Source: a virus. Taken from it: 35,861 bases of DNA. The notes under the pieces were generated by a model. It saw only the letters and a list, made by a program, of their open reading frames with translations. It was not told the DNA's origin and did no database searches. Made by a program: the position numbers and the translations under genes. Below, in pieces: positions 13,259 through 32,608 of the stretch (the stretch's first letter is position 1; each line of letters starts with the position of its first letter). The stretch lies in IMG/VR virus record IMGVR_UViG_3300047994_000425, positions 1 through 35,861 of that record. One strand, given 5' to 3'.

Positions 13259-14319
13259 GTCCCACCTCCGCCTGCCAGAGTGATTTGCCCTAATCCGTCC
13301 GATAACGAATCGCGATCGACGGGAGGCGGCCATTCGCTGCGCTCAAACCATTTTTCGCCCTGCGCCGCGCGGCTTTCCATGAAGGAAACCGGTTGCCCAT
13401 GCGCTTTTTTGTAATCGCGCCAGCGATACCACTGCGGCGTGTAGGGTTTGATCTCGACTGCGACCACGCCAGCGCGAACGGAATCCGCGAAACGTTCGAA
13501 ACGCTTCTCGCGCAGATACGTCGTCAGGTCGCAGACCTTCCGGCTTTGCCGGGCGCAATCGTCGAGATAGCTCTGCGCGCAGTCGTTGGCGCGCCTGCGA
13601 TCTGTCGTCGAGAGATGTTGCCAGGCCTTTTCCGCTGCCACACGGCTCAGAACCACGTCGGGAGGCCAGACCCTGAGCAAATCCGAAAACGCACACCCGC
13701 CCGTTTTCGTCGGAGGATCAGCGCATGAGGTTTGCGGATTTGCATTGGGCGGTGTTCGTGAATCTCTGTTTTCGTAAGATTCTGTTTTCTTAGAGTCTAT
13801 ATAGCCATGATACGCCTTACCCGTATCCCGGTTAACCCGTGTCACGGGTAACCCGTCGCACGGCAAAGGCGTATCATGGTGCGCGGTTGCCGGCGCGGCG
13901 ACAGCTTCATCGGCAGATTGCTCGACAGCGTCTCGGGCACTAGTTTCTTCGGCGACATGTGACGGAACCGGATCGGCCTCATCGTCGGCGGCTTCTTCGG
14001 CATCGAGCGCAGCGTCGTCGATCGGCTCGCCCGGTTCGTCCGTGATGATCCAGCGCACGCCGAGAAACGTGCCGTCGTCGCCGTGCACACGTTCCACCTG
14101 AGCCCAGCCGCGCTTGCGCAGGCTGCGGAAGATACGGGCCGCCTTGTCGCGTCCGATGCCCCAGAACTTGGCGCAGTTGTGCCGGCTCACTTCCCAGTCG
14201 TCTGGAAGCGACAACAGGTAATGCAGCATGCCATGCTCATCGAGCGTCAGATTCTGGTCACGCACGAGCGCGTTTTCCAGCTGAACGAAATTCTTGGTTT
14301 TGACGCGCCGGATAATCAT
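13255..14319 (-). CDS. Replication initiator-like protein with winged helix-turn-helix (lambda O-like role)
   Basis: I choose the ATG at 14319 (MIIRRVKTKNFVQLENALV), with AGAAGG about nine bases upstream. The open frame extends further up but would overlap the DUF4031 gene. The 354-residue protein has an N-terminal winged helix region (LDEHGMLHYLLSLPDDWEVS, KFWGIGRDKAARIFRSLRKR) of the type found in phage replication and DnaD/O-like proteins. A low-complexity acidic linker follows (residues about 105-160). The C-terminal part has a Trp-rich segment (YTPQWYRWRDYKKAHG). The linker-coding DNA carries three 16-bp tandem repeats and AT-rich DNA, as lambda ori lies in gene O. This context supports replication initiation. 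Confidence 0.68.
   Translation of the reverse strand: MIIRRVKTKNFVQLENALVRDQNLTLDEHGMLHYLLSLPDDWEVSRHNCAKFWGIGRDKAARIFRSLRKRGWAQVERVHGDDGTFLGVRWIITDEPGEPIDDAALDAEEAADDEADPVPSHVAEETSARDAVEQSADEAVAAPATAHHDTPLPCDGLPVTRVNRDTGKAYHGYIDSKKTESYENRDSRTPPNANPQTSCADPPTKTGGCAFSDLLRVWPPDVVLSRVAAEKAWQHLSTTDRRRANDCAQSYLDDCARQSRKVCDLTTYLREKRFERFADSVRAGVVAVEIKPYTPQWYRWRDYKKAHGQPVSFMESRAAQGEKWFERSEWPPPVDRDSLSDGLGQITLAGGGGT
13756..13879. other. Candidate phage replication origin: three 16-bp iterons, flanking inverted repeat, AT-rich block
   Basis: Three tandem 16-bp units start at 13819, 13835 and 13851 and share ACCCGT at their heads (consensus about ACCCGTNTCACGGNTA). They are enclosed by a perfect 14-bp inverted repeat, CCATGATACGCCTT at 13805-13818 and its complement at 13866-13879. 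An AT-rich block of nearly 50 bases (13756-13804) lies beside them, unlike the GC-rich surroundings. The whole lies inside the replication-initiator-like gene, the same plan as the lambda origin within gene O. The pattern is seen directly; origin function is inferred. Confidence 0.65.
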
Positions 14320-15848: not shown

Positions 15849-16127
15849 ATGACATTCACCTACGACCTGAAGAAATACGTCAGGACGCGCGCGGAACGCG
15901 GCATCGATTTCAAGGATGCGGAGATCGTGTTTGCGGGCGTCACGTTGACGAAACTGGATACCCGGCGCGACTACGGCGAAGACCGTTTTCAAACGATCGG
16001 ATTTCTCGCGGGCCGGATGGTGATGATTGTCTGGACCCCGCGTGGCGAGGCCCGCCACATCATCAGCATGAGGAAGTGCAATGGCCGCGAAAAAGCGATC
16101 TATCAACAGCAGTTTGCGAAAGATTGA
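15849..16127 (+). CDS. brnT: BrnT-family ribonuclease toxin
   Basis: This 92-residue protein (family about 90-93) has the BrnT plan: AERGIDFKDAEIVFAG, then RRDYGEDRFQTIGFLAGR, MVMIVWTPRG, and ARHIISMRKCNGREKAIYQ. The DYGEeR and IISmRk...E..Y segments are the family hallmarks. BrnT is a RelE-like RNase that inhibits translation and is held inactive by BrnA. It lies on the plus strand between minus-strand phage genes, so it is probably a self-contained addiction or phage-defence cassette. No promoter other than its own is apparent. Confidence 0.88.
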   Translation: MTFTYDLKKYVRTRAERGIDFKDAEIVFAGVTLTKLDTRRDYGEDRFQTIGFLAGRMVMIVWTPRGEARHIISMRKCNGREKAIYQQQFAKD

Positions 16128-16383
16128 CCGCCACGTCATCCAGCCGGAAGAATATGAAGATGCGCCGGAATGGACCGCGCAGGATTTCGAGTCAGCCACC
16201 TTGCGCCAAGGCAACAAGGTCATCCGGCGCGGCCGGCCGTCTTTGCCCATCGACGAGCGCAAGAAGGCGATCACGTTGCGGCTTGATCCAGGCGTGATCG
16301 AGGCATACCGCGCGACCGGCGCGGGCTGGCAGGCGCGCATCAACGAGGATCTGCGCAAGACGGCGAAGCGATTGAAGGCATAA
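16081..16383 (+). CDS. brnA: BrnA-family antitoxin
   Basis: This 100-residue protein starts inside the end of brnT (47-base overlap) at an ATG with AGGAAG upstream. Residues 1-50 are charged and likely bind the toxin. The C-terminal part, RRGRPSLPIDERKKAITLRL then DPGVIEAYRATGAGWQARIN, is the ribbon-helix-helix type region of BrnA (GRP..., V..R.d.dV...~r..G.gWQ.riN). It neutralises BrnT and represses the operon. The gene ends 64 bases from the convergent reverse-transcriptase gene. Confidence 0.9.
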   Translation: MAAKKRSINSSLRKIDRHVIQPEEYEDAPEWTAQDFESATLRQGNKVIRRGRPSLPIDERKKAITLRLDPGVIEAYRATGAGWQARINEDLRKTAKRLKA

Positions 16384-16447: not shown

Positions 16448-17434
16448 TCATACGGCGAGCCCCAGACTGCGAATGAGATTCCGGCTGTCCGCCCAGCGCG
16501 CATGGCCGAGCCATGCGGCGAGGAACGTCTCCAGCCGCTTGTGATCACCCGCTTTGCGATACGCCGCGATCTTGCGCCGCGCGCGCGTGACGCTGTCGCG
16601 CCGCAGCAGCTTGTGCGTCGGCCAGATGCGGTAGCCGAGGAAGTTGATTCCGCGGCTGACCGGCGCGATCGACCACTTTGAGAACCGCAAGCCCAGTTCG
16701 CGGCGGGAGAAATCCTCGATGCTCGCTTTCACCGCGCGCAGATGCGCCGGGCTGCGGCCCAGCACCACGAGATCGTCCATGTAGCGAACCCAGAGGCGCT
16801 CACCCAAGGCTTGCTGCAGATGCCGGTCGAGCGTGGCGCCGGTATAGACGTTGGCGAAAATCTGCGAGGTGAGACTGCCGATCGGCAGGCCGATGCCGTC
16901 GCGTGGTACCATCGCTTCGATCAACGTCAGCGTGGCGCGGCAACTGATCTTGGCCTCGATCAGCCGCCAGAGAACATCACGCTGGATCGATGCGAAATAG
17001 GCCGAGAAGTCGGTTTTCAAAAAGTATAACGCTTCGCCCGCCCGTGTTTCCCGCCGCACGTCGGATTGCAGCAGCGTCACGCCGGCATGCGTTCCCTTCC
17101 CCGGACGACAGGCAAACGCGCGCGGCAACAGCGCCCGGTCGAAGATCGGCGCGATGACCAGACACAGCGCCTGCTGCGCCACGCGATCGCGAAACGGCAA
17201 CGCCGAGATCAACCGCAGCTTCGGATCGAAGATGTGGAATTCGTGCGGCGCGCCGGACACATAGGTTCCGTCGCGCATCTCGCACGCGAGGTCGTGGAGG
17301 TTCAGTGCGCTGAATTCCTTGAAGTCGAGATACCCCGGCGTAAGACGCTTGCCCGCGGACGTCAGCCGCAGCGCGGCTTCCATCGTCTTGGGCGATGTGA
17401 TCTGGCCGATGAGATTGCGATATCGCTTCGTCAT
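16448..17434 (-). CDS. DGR reverse transcriptase
   Basis: This 328-residue protein starts with ATG at 17434. It carries the group II-intron-like reverse transcriptase motifs: KTDFSAYFASI with the catalytic Asp142, IGLPIGSLTSQIFANVY (181-197), the active-site YMDD (218-221) and the LGLRFSKWSI and INFLGYRI segments. The motif IGxxxSQ in place of QGxxxSP marks reverse transcriptases of diversity-generating retroelements. It lacks endonuclease and maturase domains. Together with Avd it copies the template-repeat RNA into cDNA, misreading adenines, for transfer into the variable repeats. The order target, avd, TR, RT is that of the Bordetella phage BPP-1 element. Confidence 0.97.
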   Translation of the reverse strand: MTKRYRNLIGQITSPKTMEAALRLTSAGKRLTPGYLDFKEFSALNLHDLACEMRDGTYVSGAPHEFHIFDPKLRLISALPFRDRVAQQALCLVIAPIFDRALLPRAFACRPGKGTHAGVTLLQSDVRRETRAGEALYFLKTDFSAYFASIQRDVLWRLIEAKISCRATLTLIEAMVPRDGIGLPIGSLTSQIFANVYTGATLDRHLQQALGERLWVRYMDDLVVLGRSPAHLRAVKASIEDFSRRELGLRFSKWSIAPVSRGINFLGYRIWPTHKLLRRDSVTRARRKIAAYRKAGDHKRLETFLAAWLGHARWADSRNLIRSLGLAV

Positions 17435-17689
17435 GCGACACCCGAAGAAGAAAAACCGGCCGCGGGTCTCGACGCTTGCGCGCTACGCCCCGTTCTGCCG
17501 GATCGTGAAGCGTGTTCGCCGAAGCAGGACACGCGGGCTGACCACCAACCTTGGTTTTGTGCGGGCGCGCATGCGGCCTGCCGCATGCGCGCCGTGGCCG
17601 GCCGGAGCAACCGTGATCGCATCCGAGCCCGTCTTCCGCGACGCGTCGCCGAGCGACGTCCGCGACGTTTCGCGCAAGCCATAAGGTCG
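17435..17689 (-). ncRNA. DGR RNA spacer between template repeat and reverse transcriptase
   Basis: This 255-base stretch has no convincing gene. In characterised DGRs the RNA continues from the template repeat through a structured spacer that primes cDNA synthesis and binds Avd/RT. Here the spacer includes a perfect 14-bp inverted repeat (17564-17577 and 17580-17593, arm GGCGCGCATGCGGC) with a two-base loop. The RNA ends cannot be set from sequence. Confidence 0.65.
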
Positions 17690-17811
17690 TCACTGCGGCC
17701 CCGCGCTCCAATGTTGTCGTTCGAGTTGTCCGGCCAGTTGTCGACGTTCGCGTAGCGCGAGCCCGCGTTGTCGTCGTTGATCCAGGACCCGCCGAAGATG
17801 GACGCGCGCGG
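17690..17811 (-). repeat. DGR template repeat (TR)
   Basis: A 122-base block, minus strand, is nearly identical to the 3' ends of both target genes. All differences to VR1 (14) and VR2 (15) fall at adenines of this copy, which marks it as template. Read in the target frame it is rich in AAC codons (seven), the usual TR codon because single or double A changes cannot make a stop. It begins six bases after the avd stop codon and ends with the GC-rich GCGCGGGGCCGCAGTGA shared with both VRs. After that it diverges from them (CGACC against YCACC). Confidence 0.97.
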
Positions 17812-17816
17812 CTGCA

Positions 17817-18194
17817 TCATTTCCCCGCCTGCCCTCCAAGCTTCCGTTGCCATGCACCCAGCATCCGTCCCGGCTCTGACAGCAGCTTGAGCGCTGTTTC
17901 GTGTTGGTGGGTTGAGATGGCTTTGATGTTTTTGGTGGCAAGGAAGCGAAGATGAGACCGCAGCGTCGCGAACTCGGCATCGACGGCGTGAAGCCGTGAC
18001 ACCTGTCGCGATTTCGCGGCGTAATAGAGACCCCCGATCGGCTCGAACAGCGCGCGCAACACAACGTCCCGAAGGACGCCATGTTTGCGCGGGCACGTCT
18101 GAAGAACCGGATAAATGTAGCTCACGAAGGCCTCGTATTTTTCGACGATCGCCAGAGCGTCGGTTGAAGTGTTTTCGTCTCTGACGATCGTCAT
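17817..18194 (-). CDS. avd: Avd accessory variability determinant
   Basis: I take the ATG at 18194 (GGTGA eight bases upstream), giving 125 residues, close to BPP-1 bAvd (128). A GTG at 18206 would add four. The sequence is all-helical: VEKYEAFVSYIYPVLQTCPR, KHGVLRDVVLRALFEPIGGL, YYAAKSRQVSRLHAVDAEFA, LRSHLRFLATKN. That fits the four-helix bundle of Avd with its basic, nucleic-acid-binding surface. Avd forms a pentamer that binds the reverse transcriptase and template RNA and is needed for mutagenic retrohoming. It lies between the target gene and the template repeat, as in BPP-1. Confidence 0.92.
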   Translation of the reverse strand: MTIVRDENTSTDALAIVEKYEAFVSYIYPVLQTCPRKHGVLRDVVLRALFEPIGGLYYAAKSRQVSRLHAVDAEFATLRSHLRFLATKNIKAISTHQHETALKLLSEPGRMLGAWQRKLGGQAGK

Positions 18195-18208: not shown

Positions 18209-18228
18209 GCCGCCGCTGTCGCGACGGC
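18209..18228 (-). promoter_or_regulatory. Hairpin after VR1 (retrohoming recognition element)
   Basis: On the minus strand GCCGTCGC (18228-18221), loop GACA and GCGGCGGC (18216-18209) form an 8-bp stem with one G-T pair. It begins at the last base of the target stop codon, 18 bases past VR1. BPP-1 has an 8-bp stem, 4-base loop hairpin or cruciform in the same place that is needed for target recognition. The same element follows VR2. Confidence 0.8.
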
Positions 18229-19142
18229 TAGACAGGTTGCAGGTGATCACTGCGGCCCCGCGCACCAATGCTGCCGCTCGAGCTGCCCGGCCAGAAGTCG
18301 ACGACCGCGTAGCGCGAGCCCGCGTTGTCGGCGACGATCCAGGACCCGCCGAAGAGGGACGCGCGCGGCTCGTCGGGATCTCCGTCATGGCCCCACACCC
18401 ACATGTTGCCGGTGGCCTGCATCAGGCCGAAGCGGCTCGTGCGCGCCGCGTCCAGTTTCGTGATCTTCGGTTTGGAAGCGGCGGCGGTCTTTTCCGTAAC
18501 GCCGATCGCGGCACAGGCGAATTCCTCGAAGCTGAGAAGTCCCTTGCCGTGATGCGCCATCACCTTGCACGCGGTGTCGTAATCGAACTTTCGAAACGCT
18601 TTGCCGGTCGAAGGATCAACGGGGCAATCGTCGCCGTCGGCAATTGGAACGCCGAGCTTGCTCGTCCCCATACTGAAGTGCGCGACACCCGTCAGATAGA
18701 TGTCGCACCAGAACGGTTTGATCGTGGCGGATTCAACGCGAACCATGCCGCGGGGATCGGCGCATGCGGGACGGAAGTTGCGATCCCACACCGAGAACGG
18801 ATTGATCGCAGGTATGTCATCGCCGCCGGCGCGCGCGGAGGCGCTGCCGCCGGGCGTAAAATGAAAGCCGCCAATGACAGCGTCGGTCAACGTCGTCATC
18901 GGCACGATGCTGAGCGTGCCAAGATCGCAGATCACCGCGTAGTCTGTCCCCGCGACGGGATGCCCCGAGGGGAACGTCACGGGCGTGTCCCGGTCGAACG
19001 TTGTCCCGTTGAACGATGTTCCGGCCTTGATGCCGACAGCGGCGCGGTGGCTCACGTAAATCGCGGGCGACGACGGGTCTTCTTTCGTCAGCGTCGGCAG
19101 TAACACGGTCTCAACTGGCTTTGCCTTTGCGGTCGCGGTCAT
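18228..19142 (-). CDS. DGR variable target protein 1 (lectin-fold-type, Mtd-like)
   Basis: This 304-residue protein starts with ATG at 19142 behind GGAG. The C-terminal half looks like the C-type-lectin-like fold of DGR targets: VIGGFHFTP, INPFSVWDRNFRPACADPRG, TGNMWVWGHDGDPD, then the variable segment with GGSW, AGSRYA, FWPG and GARGRSDH. Variable residues alternate with fixed ones and would form the ligand-binding face. The N-terminal part (about residues 1-85) is separate and may be an attachment or trimerisation domain. It has no signal peptide or membrane segment. The gene lies after a methyltransferase and a SANT-like gene, not in the tail module. Its product could be a receptor-binding protein, but that is inferred. 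Confidence 0.93.
   Translation of the reverse strand: MTATAKAKPVETVLLPTLTKEDPSSPAIYVSHRAAVGIKAGTSFNGTTFDRDTPVTFPSGHPVAGTDYAVICDLGTLSIVPMTTLTDAVIGGFHFTPGGSASARAGGDDIPAINPFSVWDRNFRPACADPRGMVRVESATIKPFWCDIYLTGVAHFSMGTSKLGVPIADGDDCPVDPSTGKAFRKFDYDTACKVMAHHGKGLLSFEEFACAAIGVTEKTAAASKPKITKLDAARTSRFGLMQATGNMWVWGHDGDPDEPRASLFGGSWIVADNAGSRYAVVDFWPGSSSGSIGARGRSDHLQPV
18247..18368 (-). repeat. DGR variable repeat VR1
   Basis: This block aligns without gaps to the template repeat over 122 bases. Fourteen differences are seen, all where the template has A: aac to gtc twice, aac to ttc, aac to agc three times, gac to ggc twice, gac to gcc, atc to ctc and gga to ggt. No C, G or T of the template is changed. 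The last 17 bases are constant and match the initiation of mutagenic homing region. It encodes the C-terminal part of target protein 1. Confidence 0.97.
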
Positions 19143-19145
19143 GTG

Positions 19146-19544
19146 TCACGTCTCCATGTGAATCCGGCCACCCGCCGGCAGGGTCGGTAAGGTGATTTGC
19201 GAAATCGATGCCCGTTTCTGATCGAGCGCGCTGCGTCCGGGCAGAGGATCGCCCAGGACGGCAGCCGTGATGGTGGTGTGCGTCAGCGCCGCGCGACGGG
19301 CCGCTTCGGTTTTCAACCGCGCTGTGATGGCATCGGACGCTGATGAAGCCGCCGATGGCGGAGGCGCGGGGCGCGGCAAACCCGATACGCGCAGATGCGG
19401 CGGCATGTAGAAGCGGATCTGGCAGGCCACGGCGGTGCGGCCGGGCATCCTCAATGCCACCTTTTGCCAGTTCCGGTCATGCGCATCGGCCAGTCGCAAC
19501 AGCCGCTCGACTTCGGGCGCGGTCCACAATGGAATCTGTTTCAT
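19146..19544 (-). CDS. Small SANT/Myb-like DNA-binding protein
   Basis: The ATG at 19544 overlaps the methyltransferase stop as ATGA and gives 132 residues. The N-terminal part, LWTAPEVERLLRLADAHDRN then WQKVALRMPGRTAVACQIRF, has the spaced Trp residues and the gRT..qC..R end of SANT/Myb-type helix-turn-helix domains. The rest is Pro/Ala-rich and likely disordered, ending with LPTLPAGGRIHMET. The last codons carry the ribosome-binding site of target protein 1, so the two genes are probably co-transcribed. A regulatory role is plausible but unproven. Confidence 0.65.
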   Translation of the reverse strand: MKQIPLWTAPEVERLLRLADAHDRNWQKVALRMPGRTAVACQIRFYMPPHLRVSGLPRPAPPPSAASSASDAITARLKTEAARRAALTHTTITAAVLGDPLPGRSALDQKRASISQITLPTLPAGGRIHMET

Positions 19545-21454
19545 TCCGCCGCCTCCAGATAGAAATCCGGCGGAGCGCGCCGCGCGATCTCGCGCGGTTT
19601 GAAATTCGCGCGCACCAGCGCTTCGGCCATCGGCGGGCAAACGCTGTTGCCGCACTTCGAGACCTGATCGGTCTTCGTGATCGGCCTGCCGTCAGGTCTG
19701 CGGTCGATGATGTAGCTGTCATCGAAACCCTGTGCGCGAAACAGTTCGCGCGGCGTCAGCATCCGCATGCCGATGTCGGTGATCACATAAGGCTCGCCGT
19801 CGATATCGACGGTCACCACGCCGAGACGATCCTTCGTGGTGACCGTGTGTGCGGGACCGGAAACGTCTTGGCCCTCGCCGGTCCCGTAATATTTCGAGAT
19901 GAATGCTGCAGACAGTTGCGTTTTGCCGGCGCCATCCGCCATCACCGTGCGTGCAGGTTCTTCCAGTGATGAGCCGACGCCAGTCCCGAACTGGCGCAGG
20001 AGATTCGCGGCAACCAGCCCCTGATGCGATCCGGTTTGCAGAATGGTGGAGACTGGTTCTTCTGCCGAACGTCCCGGATGGCCTTCGCCGGTTCGGCTGT
20101 CGATGTTGTGCTGAGCGAGGAATGCGGCGACGGTGTACATATGCGCGCCGCCCGCGGTGATGGTGTGTGTCGGCTCATCGCCCGCTGTGTGCGGCTTCTG
20201 CGCATTGCGCATGACCTGCAGATGCGGCGCGACCAGAGCGTGTTTCACGCCGCCGGCCACCACGGTGCCGAGCGGCTTGTCGAGACCAGGCACGCGCGGT
20301 TCTTGGCCTTCGCGCTCGCCGTAACCTGTCTGGACCAGCGTCGGAACGATGATCTGATTTTGATCTTTGCGTGACGCGGCGATCGTATGGATCGGCTCTC
20401 CCGCCTCTCGCGATGATCCGCCATGCTGAGCCGCGCTGACGAACGGAGTGACAACAACGCTGTCGGCTTTCGCTGTCAGCGTTTGGACCGGCGCATCCGC
20501 ATTGCGCGGTTCGGTCTGCCCCATGCGTCCGCCAACGCCAGTCACGAACGGGACGGCGACCGCTTTTTCGCCGCGGTGCGCGCCGGTCACGGTCATCATC
20601 GGGTCTTCGACGGATTCGGTCCGGTCGCCGCCCTGATGCGTGAGGTTGACGATGAATGGCTTCGCCGCGTCGAGAACGTAGCGCTTCACGCCCTTGGCGA
20701 TGCGCGCCATCGTCGCGGGCTGAAGGGGCCGGACAGCGCGGAGGCCGAACTTCGCCATGATCTCTTCGGACGTTTCGAAGATCGACGGACAAGGCATCGA
20801 CCAGTCGATGATTTCTGCGGCCGTTCGCCATGGCTTCAGCTTGCCTGACGTTACGGCTGCCGATTTCGGATCGCCATGCGTCGGCTCGGGCCAGACGATC
20901 GGCTCGCCGTCATTGCGGGCGATCAGGAACAGGCGCTTGCGAATGGTTGGCGCGCCGTAGTCGCAGGCGCGAAGCTCGCGCCATTCGAGCCTGTAGCCAA
21001 GCTTGCGGAGTTCGTTCGTCCATTGACGGAACGTGTCGCCCTTCAGCGCCGTGTCGGGCTTGTTGTCCGCACCCAGCGGTCCCCACGTCTGAAACTCTTC
21101 GACGTTCTCAAGGATGATGACGCGCGGTCCGCCTCTGCGGCGCTTCGCCCAGCGAACAACGACCCAGGCCAGATCGCGGATGCCCTTCTCGACGGGCTTG
21201 CCGCCCTTGGCCTTGGAAAAATGTTTGCAGTCCGGACTGAACCAGCCGAGCCCGATATCACCATCGATGTCGTCCGGATCGATTTTCCAGACGTTGTTGC
21301 AAAGGTGTTTCGTGTCGGGATGGTTGACCTCGTGCATCGCCAGCGCGACGTCGTCGTGATTGATCGCGATGTCCGGCGAAATGCCGAGCGCCATGTAAAT
21401 GCCGGTCGACGCGCCTCCCCCGCCCGCGAAATTATCGACGATCAGTTCGCGCAT
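19541..21454 (-). CDS. C5-cytosine DNA methyltransferase with internal repeat region
   Basis: I take the ATG at 21454 (TGATG overlap, GGAGG eight bases upstream); the GTG at 21457 is an alternative. It has about 637 residues. Motif I is DNFAGGGGASTG. The catalytic Cys is in FSPDCKHFSKAKGG, an SPDC form of the PC motif. ENV is in VIILENVEEF, the QxRxR-like motif in TIRKRLFLIA, and motifs IX/X in QVSKCGNSVCPPMAEALV. Residues 267-548, where the target recognition domain should be, are eight degenerate repeats of 32-39 residues. It is 1.5 times the usual length of such enzymes. It would methylate phage DNA, probably against host restriction. Confidence 0.9.
   Translation of the reverse strand: MRELIVDNFAGGGGASTGIYMALGISPDIAINHDDVALAMHEVNHPDTKHLCNNVWKIDPDDIDGDIGLGWFSPDCKHFSKAKGGKPVEKGIRDLAWVVVRWAKRRRGGPRVIILENVEEFQTWGPLGADNKPDTALKGDTFRQWTNELRKLGYRLEWRELRACDYGAPTIRKRLFLIARNDGEPIVWPEPTHGDPKSAAVTSGKLKPWRTAAEIIDWSMPCPSIFETSEEIMAKFGLRAVRPLQPATMARIAKGVKRYVLDAAKPFIVNLTHQGGDRTESVEDPMMTVTGAHRGEKAVAVPFVTGVGGRMGQTEPRNADAPVQTLTAKADSVVVTPFVSAAQHGGSSREAGEPIHTIAASRKDQNQIIVPTLVQTGYGEREGQEPRVPGLDKPLGTVVAGGVKHALVAPHLQVMRNAQKPHTAGDEPTHTITAGGAHMYTVAAFLAQHNIDSRTGEGHPGRSAEEPVSTILQTGSHQGLVAANLLRQFGTGVGSSLEEPARTVMADGAGKTQLSAAFISKYYGTGEGQDVSGPAHTVTTKDRLGVVTVDIDGEPYVITDIGMRMLTPRELFRAQGFDDSYIIDRRPDGRPITKTDQVSKCGNSVCPPMAEALVRANFKPREIARRAPPDFYLEAAE
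19814..20659 (-). repeat. Eight degenerate 32-39-residue repeats in the cytosine methyltransferase
   Basis: The coded repeats start near PFIVNLTHQGG, VPFVTGVGGRM, TPFVSAAQHGG, PTLVQTGYGER, APHLQVMRNAQ, AAFLAQHNIDS, AANLLRQFGTG and AAFISKYYGTG. Each continues with a (E)P..T(v/i) segment (DPMMTVTG, APVQTLTA, EPIHTIAA, KPLGTVVA, EPTHTITA, EPVSTILQ, EPARTVMA, GPAHTVTT). They stand between the catalytic and C-terminal methyltransferase motifs. Confidence 0.75.
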
Positions 21455-26953: not shown

Positions 26954-27027
26954 TTTGCGATAATCGCGAGTATCGGTCAATCATAATTTGCGATTGTCGC
27001 GATATATTTATTTGCGAATATCGCGAA
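26954..27027. promoter_or_regulatory. Three-site operator cluster between cro-like and repressor genes
   Basis: Three copies of a 17-bp near-palindrome lie between the two start codons: TTTGCGATAATCGCGAG (26954-26970), TTTGCGATTGTCGCGAT (26987-27003) and TTTGCGAATATCGCGAA (27011-27027). The dyad is TTYGCGAT-N-ATCGCGAA-like, with 33 and 24 bp spacing between starts. The third site ends 10 bases before the repressor ATG, so it must overlap that promoter. The arrangement is comparable to OR of lambda. Confidence 0.85.
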
Positions 27028-27037
27028 TACTAATAAG

Positions 27038-27736
27038 ATGAGCAACTTACGTGATGCGCAGAAGCAATGGCTCCTTGATCACCTCGATGCCCGTGGTCGC
27101 GGCGCGCGTGGCGCGTTAGCAATTTACATGGGCGTCCGCGCTGATGTGATCACACGAATGACGAATCGAGACGGCTCTAAGGAGACGCGCGAGATATCCT
27201 TTGAAGAACTGGTCAAGATGGCCGAGTTTTTCGAAGATGACCCACCAGGTTTGGCTGCAGCGCGCGCCGGAATTGCGCCAACGGTCGCACGCTCTAAAAC
27301 TGCCCTACCACCCATCGGCGATCAGTATGGGCCGAAGGACTTCCGCATTTTTAGTGCGGCTGAGGGAGGTTCCGGTGAAATCATTCGATCTGTTGAGCCT
27401 GTCGACTGGTGGCCAAGGCCGATCGAAGTCCAGCAGGTCAAGGGGGCCTACGGAATGTACATTGTTGGCGATTCAATGGTCCCAGAATTTCGACCCGGAC
27501 ACGTGGCCGTTATCAATCCGAATCTGCCGCACGTCGGAGACAAGCCGTACATTTTTTATGCTGAAACAGAGGGCGGCGAAGTTCGCGCAACCGTGAAGCT
27601 CTTGCGCAGGCAAACCGGGGATCTTTGGCATGTCACCCAGCACAACCCGCCGCCGGGACAAAAGAACGACTTCACGCTTTCCAAAAAACTCTGGCGGGAA
27701 GCTCATCGGATTGTCGGTCGGCAAGATCCATCGTAG
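27038..27736 (+). CDS. S24-family phage repressor (CI/LexA-like)
   Basis: This 232-residue protein starts with ATG at 27038. The N-terminal part is a HTH (ARGALAIYMGVRADVITRMT, ISFEELVKMAEFF). The C-terminal domain is of the LexA/S24 type: AYGMYIVGDSMVPEFRPGHV with Ser146, and ATVKLLRRQ with Lys187, the expected serine-lysine pair. The segment where the cleaved Ala-Gly bond is usual reads SAAEGGSGE (106-114), so a canonical cleavage site is not evident and RecA-induced autocleavage is uncertain. It would keep the lytic operon silent by binding the nearby dyads. Base composition is lower in GC than its neighbours. Confidence 0.88.
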   Translation: MSNLRDAQKQWLLDHLDARGRGARGALAIYMGVRADVITRMTNRDGSKETREISFEELVKMAEFFEDDPPGLAAARAGIAPTVARSKTALPPIGDQYGPKDFRIFSAAEGGSGEIIRSVEPVDWWPRPIEVQQVKGAYGMYIVGDSMVPEFRPGHVAVINPNLPHVGDKPYIFYAETEGGEVRATVKLLRRQTGDLWHVTQHNPPPGQKNDFTLSKKLWREAHRIVGRQDPS

Positions 27737-27757: not shown

Positions 27758-28414
27758 TCAGAATCTGAAGTTCACGCCGATCTTGCCGGTATCGAGATCA
27801 AGCGTGCCGGACGGGAGACCGCCGACAAATACGGTGCTCAGGTAGTTTTGGCTCTGGAAATGATAACGCATGTATTCGGCCTTGACCGATATATTGCGTG
27901 TGACGCCGTACTCCAGGCCAGCGCCGATCGCGTAGCCGCCGTGAACGCGGGTCTCTGAAGCGGTCACGCCACCGGCGGTTGCGCCAAGCTCATTCTGTCC
28001 AACCGCATAGCCGCCTTTGCCGTAAACCAGAAAATTGTCGAGCGCCACGCCGAGACGAGCAGTTGCCGAGCCAAAGGCATTGATCCTGTCAAACACAGAA
28101 ACTCCTGCTCCCAAGGAAATGGTTTGTCCGATGCGAGATCCCGAACCCTCGACCTCAACGCCCGCGACGAGATTTGAGATTTGAGCGTTGTAGCCAACAG
28201 TGCCGCCGCCGAAGCCGCCATTGAAGCTGGCATTGGCACCAGCGGTGCCACCGGTGGCCCGGGCGTAGCCGCCGATCGCGCCGACGTAGAGCCCGCTCCA
28301 GTCGTATACCTGCGACACCACCGCCGACGGTTGATAAATGGGACCGGCGAGATCGCCAGCCAACGCAGGGCAAATTGACATGAAAACAATAATAACCGCC
28401 AAAATTCGTTTCAC
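27758..28414 (-). CDS. Outer-membrane beta-barrel protein (Omp25/31 type), lysogenic conversion candidate
   Basis: This 218-residue protein starts with GTG at 28414 after AAAAAGGG. It has a signal peptide (KRILAVIIVFMSICPALA), then DWSGLYVGAIGGYARATGG, many alternating glycine-rich strands (LGVALDNFLVYGKGGYAVGQ) and a C-terminal Phe (IGVNFRF), the sorting signal of outer-membrane barrels. It belongs to the porin-like OMP family of rhizobia and brucellae. The gene is on its own, convergent to the repressor and between two operator clusters. This fits a gene expressed in the lysogen that alters the cell surface, as lom does in lambda. Confidence 0.88.
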   Translation of the reverse strand: MKRILAVIIVFMSICPALAGDLAGPIYQPSAVVSQVYDWSGLYVGAIGGYARATGGTAGANASFNGGFGGGTVGYNAQISNLVAGVEVEGSGSRIGQTISLGAGVSVFDRINAFGSATARLGVALDNFLVYGKGGYAVGQNELGATAGGVTASETRVHGGYAIGAGLEYGVTRNISVKAEYMRYHFQSQNYLSTVFVGGLPSGTLDLDTGKIGVNFRF

Positions 28415-28542: not shown

Positions 28543-28592
28543 TTTGCGATTATCGCGATTTAGTAGTTGACTAAATTTGCGATTATCGCGAA
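28543..28592. promoter_or_regulatory. Two-site operator cluster before the rightward operon
   Basis: TTTGCGATTATCGCGAT (28543-28559) and TTTGCGATTATCGCGAA (28576-28592) repeat the 17-bp dyad of the repressor/cro region 1.5 kb away. Their 33-bp spacing equals that of the first two sites there. They lie 48-97 bases before the first gene of the plus-strand operon. The same repressor very likely controls that operon, as at OL of lambda. Confidence 0.85.
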
Positions 28593-28639
28593 TGTGCCTC
28601 CATCACCTCGGGACACACCCGACAACGATGGAGCGCAAG

Positions 28640-28855
28640 ATGGTCCAATCCAAGCCGATCAAATCCGAAATCGCCCTCGCTCTCTACAAATCGCTGGAAG
28701 CCGGTTTCCGCATGAAGCGCCGCGCCCTTCAGAGCACCGCCGCCACGTTTCTCGGCCGCGAGGTGAGCGACACCGAATTCGAGGCCGGCATGTCAGAACT
28801 CGGCGATCGCGTGATGCGCCTTCGCGGCGTCGGCGGCTACATCTGTTTCGCCTGA
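28640..28855 (+). CDS. Small protein of the rightward early operon, function unknown
   Basis: I take the ATG at 28640, six bases after GGAG; it gives 71 residues, MVQSKPIKSEIALALYKSLE and onward. An upstream ATG at 28628 is possible. The sequence FRMKRRALQSTAATFLGREV then SDTEFEAGMSELGDRVMRLR is helical and moderately basic. It is the first gene after the two-site operator. I do not recognise a family. Confidence 0.6.
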   Translation: MVQSKPIKSEIALALYKSLEAGFRMKRRALQSTAATFLGREVSDTEFEAGMSELGDRVMRLRGVGGYICFA

Positions 28856-28867
28856 GGGGACCAAACC

Positions 28868-29089
28868 ATGTCCAATGCCGCTGCCTTCCACACAGCCGAA
28901 TGCCGCCGCAATCTTTTGCAGATCGCGGCGGACGCCGCCCATCCGCAAAGCCCGCTGGTGTTTCGGCTGCTGCGCAGCTTTGATGCCGCCGTGCGCGCCG
29001 CCTCCGCTCAAAGTCACACGCGCGAGGGCGACGCACCGCCCGCCCCGATCGTCATCCCCTTCCCCGCACCCATAAGGATGTCGCCATGA
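28868..29089 (+). CDS. Small protein of the rightward operon, function unknown
   Basis: This 73-residue protein starts with ATG at 28868 with GGGGA upstream and ends in an ATGA overlap with the next gene. The N-terminal half is helical (ECRRNLLQIAADAAHPQSPL, FRLLRSFDAAVRAA) and the end is Pro-rich (APPAPIVIPFPAPI-like). No family is recognised. Confidence 0.55.
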   Translation: MSNAAAFHTAECRRNLLQIAADAAHPQSPLVFRLLRSFDAAVRAASAQSHTREGDAPPAPIVIPFPAPIRMSP

Positions 29090-29382
29090 CGCCACGCCGC
29101 AGTCACACGCTTCGCCGCGCCGCCAATCCCGGCGTTGCCACCACGTTTCGCCTGCAGCCGGCCATTCCCTCCTTCATCGACTCGTCGCTGGTCCGTCCGC
29201 GCGCCTCGCTGAGTGGCGCGGCGATCACGCGCCAAATGGCGAGCGACATGCGCGAGGCAGCGCTTCGCGAAGGCGGCATCACTCGCGACGACCTTGAGGT
29301 GTTGGGCTGGACCTCGGCGCAGATCGACAAGTATGTCGCCGCGGCGCGTGAGCAGGCCCAGGCGTTATCGGGTCTCAACTGA
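29086..29382 (+). CDS. Small protein of the rightward operon, function unknown
   Basis: The ATG at 29086 overlaps the previous stop and gives 98 residues. The N-terminus is basic (TPRRSHTLRRAANPG). The second half, DMREAALREGGITRDDLEVL then GWTSAQIDKYVAAAREQAQA, is a helical segment that looks like a small DNA- or protein-binding domain. The stop overlaps the next ATG by one base. No family is recognised. Confidence 0.55.
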   Translation: MTPRRSHTLRRAANPGVATTFRLQPAIPSFIDSSLVRPRASLSGAAITRQMASDMREAALREGGITRDDLEVLGWTSAQIDKYVAAAREQAQALSGLN

Positions 29383-29585
29383 TGGCGATCAGCATCTCGG
29401 CCAGCGACCGCGTCCTCAAAGCCATCGGCGATGGCGAGGCGCTTAGTTCTGGCGCAATCGCCGCGCGCATCGACATTCTCGCGCGCGCCACCGTGCGGCA
29501 TGTGCTGGCCGAACTGGTCCGCAACGGCCGCCTGCACATGAGCGGCCCGATGGGCAAGCGCGTGTACAGCCGCGCGAACGTTTGA
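29382..29585 (+). CDS. Small winged-helix DNA-binding protein
   Basis: This 67-residue protein starts at 29382. SASDRVLKAIGDGEALSSGA, IAARIDILARATVRHVLAEL and VRNGRLHMSGPMGKRVYSR follow the winged-helix pattern, with a recognition helix (ARATVRHVLAELVRN) and a hairpin wing. It probably regulates nearby genes. The next gene, target protein 2, follows after a 62-base gap, so it may be co-transcribed. Confidence 0.65.
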   Translation: MAISISASDRVLKAIGDGEALSSGAIAARIDILARATVRHVLAELVRNGRLHMSGPMGKRVYSRANV

Positions 29586-29647: not shown

Positions 29648-30574
29648 ATGAATTCACCCGCAAAAAACCTCAAGACCGATCACGCCGCGCAGATGCTGGT
29701 GAAGGCAGACCCGTCCAGCCCCGCGCTGTTCGTCACCGGACCGAACACGATCTCGATCAAAGCCGGCACCCGTTTCGCCGGCTATACGTTCACGGAGGAT
29801 GCTCCGGTCGTCATGCCTGCGGGCGGACTTATGCCCGGTTGTGACTATGCCGTCACCGTCGCGGATGGTGTGGGCGCGGCCATCAAGCTGGATGCTTCGC
29901 CAGCGGCATCGACCTCGCCGGGAGCTTTGCTCGGAGGCTTTCATTTCGCGCCTGGTGGCAAAGCATTGGCGCGGGCGGGCGGGGACACGACACCGGCGAT
30001 CAATCCGTTTTCAATTTGGGATATCAACTTTCGTCCGTCATGCGCTGATCCTCGCGGCATGGCCCGCGTTGAGACGGCCGCGATCAAACCGTTCTGGTGC
30101 GACATCTATCTGCTCGGCGTCGACCACCTTGTCGACGGAACGAGCAAATGTGATGTGACGATCGCGGACGGCGACGATCCGCCAATCAGACCCAACGGCA
30201 AATATTTCGCGGGGCTTGACTACAAGACGGCCGTCGACGTGATGAAGCACCACGGCAAAACTTTGTTGAGCCATGACGAGTTCCGCGACGCCGCGTTTGG
30301 CGTGACCGAAAAGACATCGGCCCCCAAAGACCCGAAAATTACCAAGCTCGATGCGGCGCGCACCAGCCGGTTCGGCCTGATGCAGGCCACCGGCAACATG
30401 TGGGTGTGGGGCCACGACGGCGATCCCGACGCGCCGCGCGCGTCCCTCTTCGGCGGGTCCTGGTTCGACGACGGCAACGCGGGCTCGCGCTGCGCGTACG
30501 TCGGCCGCTGGCCGGACAACTCGTGCGTCGGCATTGGGGCGCGGGGCCGCAGTGACCACCTGCAGCTTGTTTAG
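29648..30574 (+). CDS. DGR variable target protein 2 (remote target, lectin-fold-type)
   Basis: The ATG at 29648 lies behind GGAG, in a leader similar to that of target 1 (GGAGACG in both). The 308-residue protein is a full-length paralogue of target protein 1: KADPSSPALFVTG, SIKAGTRFAGYTF, LGGFHFAPGG, INPFSIWDINFRPSCADPRG and TGNMWVWGHDGDPDAPRASL all have counterparts there. The body differs clearly while the last 50 residues are fixed except at variable positions. It has no signal peptide. It lies about 12 kb from the reverse transcriptase on the other strand, in the operon controlled by the two-site operator. Its role may be a second ligand-binding protein; location in the virion or cell is unknown. 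Confidence 0.93.
   Translation: MNSPAKNLKTDHAAQMLVKADPSSPALFVTGPNTISIKAGTRFAGYTFTEDAPVVMPAGGLMPGCDYAVTVADGVGAAIKLDASPAASTSPGALLGGFHFAPGGKALARAGGDTTPAINPFSIWDINFRPSCADPRGMARVETAAIKPFWCDIYLLGVDHLVDGTSKCDVTIADGDDPPIRPNGKYFAGLDYKTAVDVMKHHGKTLLSHDEFRDAAFGVTEKTSAPKDPKITKLDAARTSRFGLMQATGNMWVWGHDGDPDAPRASLFGGSWFDDGNAGSRCAYVGRWPDNSCVGIGARGRSDHLQLV
30434..30555 (+). repeat. DGR variable repeat VR2 (remote)
   Basis: This 122-base block aligns without gaps to the template repeat at 17690-17811. Fifteen differences are seen, all at template adenines: aac to cgc, tgc and ggc, aac to tac and gac, gac to ggc twice, gac to gtc, tac to tgc, atc to ctc and ttc, and gga to ggg. Codons containing no A are unchanged. 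The constant GC-rich end GCGCGGGGCCGCAGTGA is the same as in VR1 and the template. Confidence 0.97.
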
Positions 30575-30593
30575 CCGCCGCGACAGCGGCGGC
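30574..30593 (+). promoter_or_regulatory. Hairpin after VR2 (retrohoming recognition element)
   Basis: GCCGCCGC (30574-30581), loop GACA and GCGGCGGC (30586-30593) form a perfect 8-bp stem that begins at the last base of the stop codon, 18 bases past VR2. Position, stem length, loop size and loop sequence equal those after VR1. Confidence 0.82.
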
Positions 30594-31118: not shown

Positions 31119-32432
31119 TTATTGAAACGCAACCGCCTGACACCACTTCAGCTTGAGCGGGAGCGACGGCCCTAGTCCGTATTTCGCGCCTTTCTTTTTG
31201 TGCCCGATGAGGCTGTCGATCATCTCGTCGCCGGCCTCGAGCTCGACCAGCGAATCCCGGAACGTATGGCGGAGCGAATAGAGGCTGTGCATTTCTTCCG
31301 GCCGCATGCCGTTGTCCGTCATAAACGCATTGACGGTTGCAGACAAATTGTCCTCGCCATCGTGATAGCGCGGGAAACCGTTCGGGTTGGCGCGCATCGC
31401 GTCGAGCGCAACCCCGCACAAGGGCACGTCTCGCTTCGACTGAGGCGTCTTCATCCGGCGCCCGTCGGGGCGCACCTGGATGTGGGGAATGTCGACGTCG
31501 AGACGGATCGTGGCCTCGTTGAGGTTGATCGCCTCCGCGATGCGACAGCCGCTGCCGGCCATCAGCATGACGACACCCCTCGCCTCGGGGTTCAACTGCA
31601 TCAGCTTGCCGGAACCGAGGATGGCGTCTTGCACGAATTGGCGCGTGAAGGGCAGCCGGGAATTCTCGAAGCCTCCCTTGAAGCGCAACTCGGCGAAGAT
31701 TGCCTCTAATCCGAGACGTTTCAGCAGATTCAGTTCGCGCAGCATCTTCGCCAGATGCCCGATGTCCTTGTTGGCTGTGTCGGGATCGAGACCTTCGGCC
31801 AGAATGCGGGCCTTCCACCATGCGCGAAAATCCATCGCATCATCACGCGTGAGTTTGTGGATCGGCTTGTCGCCGACCACGGCTTTCAGATTCTCGATCG
31901 CGCGATCTTTCGGGTTGCGCCATTTGCGCATTTGATTGGGCGACAGATCCGTCAACTCGGTCGCAAACTCTGTCTCGAAAGTCGTGCGCAACTTCGAGAG
32001 CGGAATCTCATCCACTGCGATCGGAATGCCGAGTACGGCGTCTTGCGACACGGGATCGCGGGCGACGTTGCGATGAAGCAGCGCTTCCAGCCTTGTGACG
32101 ATGTCTTCGAGCGGCGCTGATGCGAGTTGTTTTGCCGGTACATAGCTGACACCCATCGCGCGGGCTCGCGCCACGGCCGCGCTGTAGGCTTTGTCGGCGT
32201 CGATTGAACGGCCGCCAGAGATCACGCGCCAATAGGCCTCGAGATCGCTGTCGAGTTGATCGGCAACGAGCGATGCGCGCGCGGCCCGCGGATCTTTCTT
32301 GACGCGAATTTTGGTTGAATGTCGAACGATGACGCGATCATCGAGGTGCGCGACTTCGGCAGGAACGCGGCGCGCGTAGTGCCAAACTCCGTTGCGATCG
32401 AACAGCCGTTCGGGCATTGCGGAACCGATCAA
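31119..32432 (-). CDS. Tyrosine-type site-specific integrase
   Basis: The start may be ATG at 32432 or at 32417 (MPERLFDRNGVWHYARRVP); the full form has 437 residues. The N-terminal part is an arm-binding domain, the middle a SAM-like core-binding domain (HKLTRDDAMDFRAWWKARIL). The catalytic domain has Arg297 (GSGCRIAEAINL), the YSLRHTFRDSL box with Arg388, His411 in LIGH and the likely nucleophile Tyr418 in KKKGAKYG. The first residue of box II, usually His, is Tyr or Ser here. It would recombine attP with the 3' end of tRNA-Asn, 100 bases away. Two hairpins (31092-31117) lie just past its stop and may end its transcript. Confidence 0.92.
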   Translation of the reverse strand: MIGSAMPERLFDRNGVWHYARRVPAEVAHLDDRVIVRHSTKIRVKKDPRAARASLVADQLDSDLEAYWRVISGGRSIDADKAYSAAVARARAMGVSYVPAKQLASAPLEDIVTRLEALLHRNVARDPVSQDAVLGIPIAVDEIPLSKLRTTFETEFATELTDLSPNQMRKWRNPKDRAIENLKAVVGDKPIHKLTRDDAMDFRAWWKARILAEGLDPDTANKDIGHLAKMLRELNLLKRLGLEAIFAELRFKGGFENSRLPFTRQFVQDAILGSGKLMQLNPEARGVVMLMAGSGCRIAEAINLNEATIRLDVDIPHIQVRPDGRRMKTPQSKRDVPLCGVALDAMRANPNGFPRYHDGEDNLSATVNAFMTDNGMRPEEMHSLYSLRHTFRDSLVELEAGDEMIDSLIGHKKKGAKYGLGPSLPLKLKWCQAVAFQ

Positions 32433-32533: not shown

Positions 32534-32608
32534 TGGCTCCCCGGGCTGGATTCGAACCAGCGACCATTCGATTAACAGTCGAATGCTCTACCGCTGAGCT
32601 ACCGAGGA
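32534..32608 (-). tRNA. tRNA-Asn (anticodon GTT), prophage integration site
   Basis: Read on the minus strand from 32608, TCCTCGG and CCGGGGA pair as acceptor stem. The D arm GGTAGCTCAGCGGTAGAGC and the T arm with GGTTCGAATCC are normal. The anticodon stem-loop TTCGACTGTTAATCGAA shows GTT. A discriminator G and encoded CCA end the gene at 32534. The 3' end faces the integrase gene, so the phage DNA restores it on integration. Confidence 0.95.

Follow-up and report, generated by a model that had tools for sequence, protein, structure and literature searches.

The locus at positions 29648 to 30593 raises the question whether a DGR can rewrite a gene that lies far from its template, in inverted orientation and behind the operators of a phage repressor, and what the product of such a gene would be used for. 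The DNA analysed is an IMG/VR record of 35,861 bases (the window, always meant at its full length), which comprises the right portion of a temperate phage together with host DNA. Read from right to left, it begins with a host gene, a tRNA-Asn, the integrase gene on the minus strand and a plus-strand operon containing the remote target, here target 2. Then follow two operators, an outer-membrane beta-barrel gene (minus strand), an S24 repressor gene (plus strand) and three further operators, and after these minus-strand early genes and methyltransferases, target 1, Avd, the template repeat (TR), the reverse transcriptase (RT) and another methyltransferase. The far-left part, also on the minus strand, encodes the replication initiator, a transcription antiterminator, terminase, portal, capsid and tail genes. 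The record ends inside the tape-measure gene, and thus the tail-tip and fibre genes fall out of view. At the right end, the integrase gene (31119-32417, minus strand; phrog_1, 2.1e-18) is convergent with the target 2 operon and adjoins the tRNA-Asn (32534-32608), which has host DNA beyond it.

The cassette consists of a DGR-type RT (16448-17434, minus strand; Pfam RVT_1 6.1e-17, phrog_1423 2.5e-107), the accessory protein Avd (17817-18194, minus strand; phrog_3206 1.3e-26), the TR located by the repeat finder (17684-17813, minus strand), which is the only template in the window, and target 1 (18228-19142, minus strand), a short Mtd homologue of 304 amino acids with Pfam and PHROG matches. VR1 (18241-18370, minus strand) differs from the TR at 16 of 130 positions, and 14 of these differences are at A. 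Two neighbourhoods of the cassette deserve mention in their own right. Between the RT and the methyltransferase, two plus-strand ORFs (15849-16383) run against the minus-strand genes; the first matches a ribonuclease-toxin family (phrog_4399, 3.8e-28), and the two look like a toxin-antitoxin pair. Immediately upstream of target 1, a Myb-like DNA-binding protein is encoded (19146-19655, minus strand; PF00249, 9.5e-9), a gene that recurs close to the DGR cassette in several relatives.

Target 2 (29648-30574, plus strand) encodes 308 amino acids, starts with ATG preceded by GGAG and matches mtd_2nd (1.6e-7), phrog_11262 (1.8e-84) and Mtd 1YU3 (4.9e-58). Its VR2 (30433-30561, plus strand), found by the repeat finder as an inverted repeat of the TR, lies 12.6 kb from it, in agreement with the earlier note, which had placed target 2 about 12 kb from the template and inverted. 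Over the 129 positions compared, TR and VR2 show 16 differences; 15 of these fall on adenines of the template, which offers 27 (hypergeometric P ~2e-11). Adenine-specific differences to the TR are thus present in both VR1 and VR2, and the proposal that both targets draw on one template was borne out.

Both targets are followed by a hairpin. In target 2 it has the form GCCGCCGC-GACA-GCGGCGGC (30574-30593, plus strand), a perfect 8-bp GC stem without mismatch and a GACA loop, beginning at the last base of the stop codon and 12 bases past VR2; the end of the feature as delimited before, 30593, coincides with the end of this hairpin and is therefore correct. The hairpin of target 1, GCCGTCGC-GACA-GCGGCGGC (18209-18228, minus strand), contains one T-G mismatch. 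Phage DGRs have in common stems of 7-10 bp of GC and GRNA loops located 4-34 bases after the VR, and in BPP-1 the hairpin after the VR is required for efficient retrohoming (PMC3240598). The structure after VR2, a GC hairpin with a GRNA loop, falls within this range, and GACA-type hairpins are present after most targets of this family.

To which template VR2 belongs can be read from the positions that are not adenines. There, VR2 fits the TR of the window at 0.990, whereas the next best of 48 templates (47 from relatives and the window's own) reaches 0.916. Taken over its full length, the target 2 gene clusters in the tree with other phages' targets and apart from target 1, at a fork that lacks strong support. 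Since VR2 is nearest to its own TR while the gene groups elsewhere, VR2 was probably rewritten after both genes came together. Upstream of the VR the two targets share 62% amino-acid identity, and the codons differ at 67 of 150 shared residues, compared to 2 of 27 within the VR. Such a distribution, with few codon differences in the VR and many upstream, indicates that one template has overwritten both genes. A chance repeat is ruled out by the adenine specificity, the hairpin and the codon evidence, and a recent duplication of target 1 by the 62% identity upstream of the VR and the lack of a sister relation in the tree. At the level of sequence, target 2 is confirmed as a genuine DGR target, and the template probably writes to VR2 over 12.6 kb in inverted orientation.

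The second part of the question concerns the control of this gene. The S24-type (CI/LexA-like) repressor (27038-27736, plus strand; Peptidase_S24 4.1e-5, phrog_4 1e-10) is surrounded by five exact copies of the candidate operator TTGCGANNNTCGCGA, and no copy lies elsewhere. Three of them (at 26955, 26988 and 27012, together spanning 26955-27026) are located between the repressor and the minus-strand operon, in which every gene call between 26943 and target 1 is a minus-strand one; the other two (28544-28558 and 28577-28591) precede the target 2 operon and have a -35-like hexamer, TTGACT, between them. Both placements, target 2 behind two operators and target 1 in the other operon behind a cluster of three, had been noted before and hold. 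With one mismatch allowed, 6 operator matches were found versus 1.2 expected, and none of 100 shuffles reached 6, a statistic that is post hoc because the pattern was derived from these very sites; a short operator core with 3 mismatches allowed gave 42 matches versus 33 expected, too close to expectation to be of use. Between the operators and target 2 are four small plus-strand ORFs (~28628-28855, 28868-29089, 29086-29382 and 29382-29585; 28628-29585 overall), for which a confident family match was sought and none found, and terminator prediction gave no plus-strand site in this interval. With a repressor next to a pair of divergent promoters that each bear operator repeats, the arrangement follows the lambda-type immunity region and its two divergent early promoters, except that here one is displaced by the outer-membrane gene. 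Repressor control of both operons is likely from this anatomy, and both target regions look like early regions, with promoters that bear operators for the same repressor. The two proteins may still differ in timing or amount, as the earlier note suggested. The outer-membrane beta-barrel gene (27758-28414, minus strand; OMP_b-brl 4.3e-14), which separates the repressor from the operators of target 2, has the look of a lysogenic-conversion gene. Four relatives of the repressor (L123-L126) match it in its C-terminal part only, and their records contain no Mtd homologue.

What kind of protein would be made from such an operon? Both targets are homologues of Mtd over its second and lectin domains, and the N-terminal part of Mtd, the residues before ~55, is absent from both: residue 15 of target 2 aligns with Mtd residue 55, so that the first ~40 residues are missing. 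This part is missing throughout the short clade. The leader before the second domain has 4-19 amino acids in the large short clade and 54 or more in a few fibre-linked Mtds; relatives with 0-1 leader residues look incomplete, and the divergent, short L028 begins at the end of its contig. By eye, no signal peptide was evident in the N-terminus of target 2. An AlphaFold model of target 2 based on 20 sequences had a mean pLDDT of 56, with a lectin half too poor to use.

In relatives, short Mtds are found among methyltransferase, ParB, primase and replication genes, several of them beside repressors. Within 8 kb, early-type neighbours occur at 35 of 44 loci and a structural neighbour at one, in a count in which some records appear twice and the structural probes are less sensitive than the early-type ones. 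The full-length Mtds read in context adjoin tail fibres or are fused to one: the mtd gene of BPP-1 comes after the fibre gene bbp9, a long Mtd in L027 comes after tail-fibre-like genes and one in L112 is fused to a fibre. The BPP-1 fibre protein bbp9 has a match in L112 only among the loci compared. G021 carries a second target beside its Cro/S24 repressor, as gene three of the operon on the cro side and ~11 kb away from the cassette, with a palindrome between repressor and operon, and this phage has its own tail-fibre and baseplate genes. A second target in L075 lies after Cro and beside the S24 repressor. L022 carries a short Mtd (L022:10010-10903, plus strand), from which an S24 repressor is separated by a minus-strand gene, in a layout close to that of the window; in the stretch read, no RT or template match was found nearby, and it is possibly an orphan target, open to service in trans by another DGR. 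No shared repeats resembling operators were evident beside the L022 and L075 targets. Upstream of and divergent from the target, L022 and L047 encode similar small membrane-like proteins (L022:9103-9645 and L047:11686-12222, both minus strand) with no Pfam match. A search over the full length of 40 other records showed no second target that was intact and on the strand opposite its template. A broken one exists in G001 (L036:6407-7582, minus strand), an inverted remote Mtd copy in the integrase-side operon, in which the VR is truncated and continues in frame into a helix-turn-helix domain (HTH_3, 2.4e-11) and which is without a hairpin. It may be a decayed target or a lectin turned regulator, and as it is represented by one record only, it may also reflect an assembly error.

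Taken together, we propose that the RT/Avd complex would copy TR RNA with errors at adenines, and that the cDNA would replace VR2 in trans, with TR/VR identity and the GACA-loop hairpin behind the stop codon as guides. Homing into VR2 is strongly supported by the sequence features described above. Judging from the anatomy, target 2 would be transcribed from a promoter overlapped by two S24 repressor operators, as part of a short plus-strand early operon running toward the integrase. Its predicted product consists of the Mtd second domain and a variable C-type-lectin domain without the Mtd N-terminal part. Such a protein might be made early and bind a variable host or rival-phage component rather than forming a standard fibre tip. 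For the whole of this reading, a working remote target in an early repressor-controlled operon that encodes an early binding protein, we see the chances as evenly balanced. The early product is suggested by the remote target, the operators, the missing N-terminal part and the synteny. We lean towards an early role because target 2 is excluded from the late transcript, the N-terminus is missing and the repressor-side siting recurs, and we consider this role the most likely one since relatives keep short Mtds in early repressor-side operons, at least one of them with separate tail-fibre genes. More tentatively, and with some doubt, the short Mtds in general might be a DGR-target branch that has gone from the virion: early, repressor-controlled, probably cytoplasmic and hypermutated against variable host components, for example defence proteins, or against rival phages, with additional copies heading early operons. 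Naming defence here is a guess prompted by the methyltransferases nearby.

Against an early role stand the Mtd homology and the label given by PHROGs, which suggest a tail protein. Both targets could be ordinary receptor-binding proteins, with the short Mtds joining the tail via a putative adaptor, and two separately regulated copies would then give mixed or alternative host ranges. The targets are homologous to a proven receptor-binding protein, their VRs turn over as expected for ligand-binding surfaces, and for the phage Lagaffe_CP, with its two Mtd-like targets, the authors propose a broader host range (PMC11792537). It is also conceivable that the missing N-terminus was replaced by another anchor. 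We nevertheless regard this explanation as somewhat unlikely. The N-terminal part is missing across the clade, and neither target adjoins a tail-fibre gene among the visible genes of the window, as mtd does in BPP-1; the gene map confirms the earlier note in that neither lies near the visible tail genes, in a record cut inside the tape-measure gene. In addition, G021 is already equipped with fibre and baseplate genes, and target 2, within its operator-headed operon, cannot be on the minus-strand late transcript.

Two further explanations were weighed. Target 2 might be a parked or decaying allele without current function, as the broken copy in G001 would suggest, but the reading frame, ribosome site, VR and hairpin of target 2 are intact, as are the residues conserved in the family, and at non-A positions VR2 still agrees with the local TR (0.990), which makes decay quite unlikely. 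A function as surface or exclusion factor of the prophage stage, with leaky or internal promoters giving weak expression in lysogens, would liken target 2 to the neighbouring outer-membrane protein gene and would suit its place in the accessory zone between repressor and integrase. The operators at the promoter, however, predict shut-off in lysogens and a signal peptide is not evident by eye, so that this function seems very unlikely.

The two targets face opposite ways, and in a passively replicated prophage one of them would therefore always be favoured: a 2026 study in E. coli found up to 44-fold more editing of targets co-directional with replication than of head-on targets (PMC12875486). 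The inverted pair lends itself naturally to testing this finding. Within the replication initiator gene, a 75-base inverted repeat with ACCCGT units (13805-13879) is located beside an AT-rich stretch; our guess is that this could be the phage origin, and if so, the fork moving rightward during lytic growth would be to the advantage of target 2 and the disadvantage of target 1. GC skew gave no pointer to an origin.

Several components of this arrangement have been described before. The BPP-1 DGR (mtd-avd-TR-brt) has the same parts in the same order as the target 1 cassette, with homologous Mtds and a GRNA-loop hairpin after the VR; in contrast to the two short targets of the window, one of them remote, inverted and operator-headed, its mtd follows a tail-fibre gene and keeps the N-terminal part. 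DGRs with more than one VR are common, making up about a seventh of those in a 2012 survey, and the DGR of Pseudogulbenkiania sp. NH8B has four VRs, two of them farther off and on the opposite strand (PMC3521204); it was described from a bacterial genome, and a repressor-controlled phage operon is not part of the description. One phage DGR with two Mtd-like targets, as in the window, is present in the Faecalibacterium prophage Lagaffe_CP, whose description, as far as it was accessible, is without a repressor-controlled remote target (PMC11792537). Gut phage DGRs with tentaclins likewise serve two targets from one template, but these differ in topology and share one cassette, whereas in the window both are short Mtds and one is remote (PMC10743442). 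Multi-target DGRs, remote VRs on the opposite strand and phages with two Mtd-like targets are thus already known. In the literature covered, which is incomplete, we found no account of an early phage operon under repressor control that contains a DGR target, and none in which short Mtds are early genes. Remote targets were out of reach for the largest metagenomic survey, whose approach would miss them by its own account (Roux 2021).

Phage DGR targets have so far been read mainly as tail proteins. Hypermutated lectins that lack the Mtd N-terminal part and are encoded in early operons point to a possible further use of DGRs, the diversification of proteins that act inside the infected cell.
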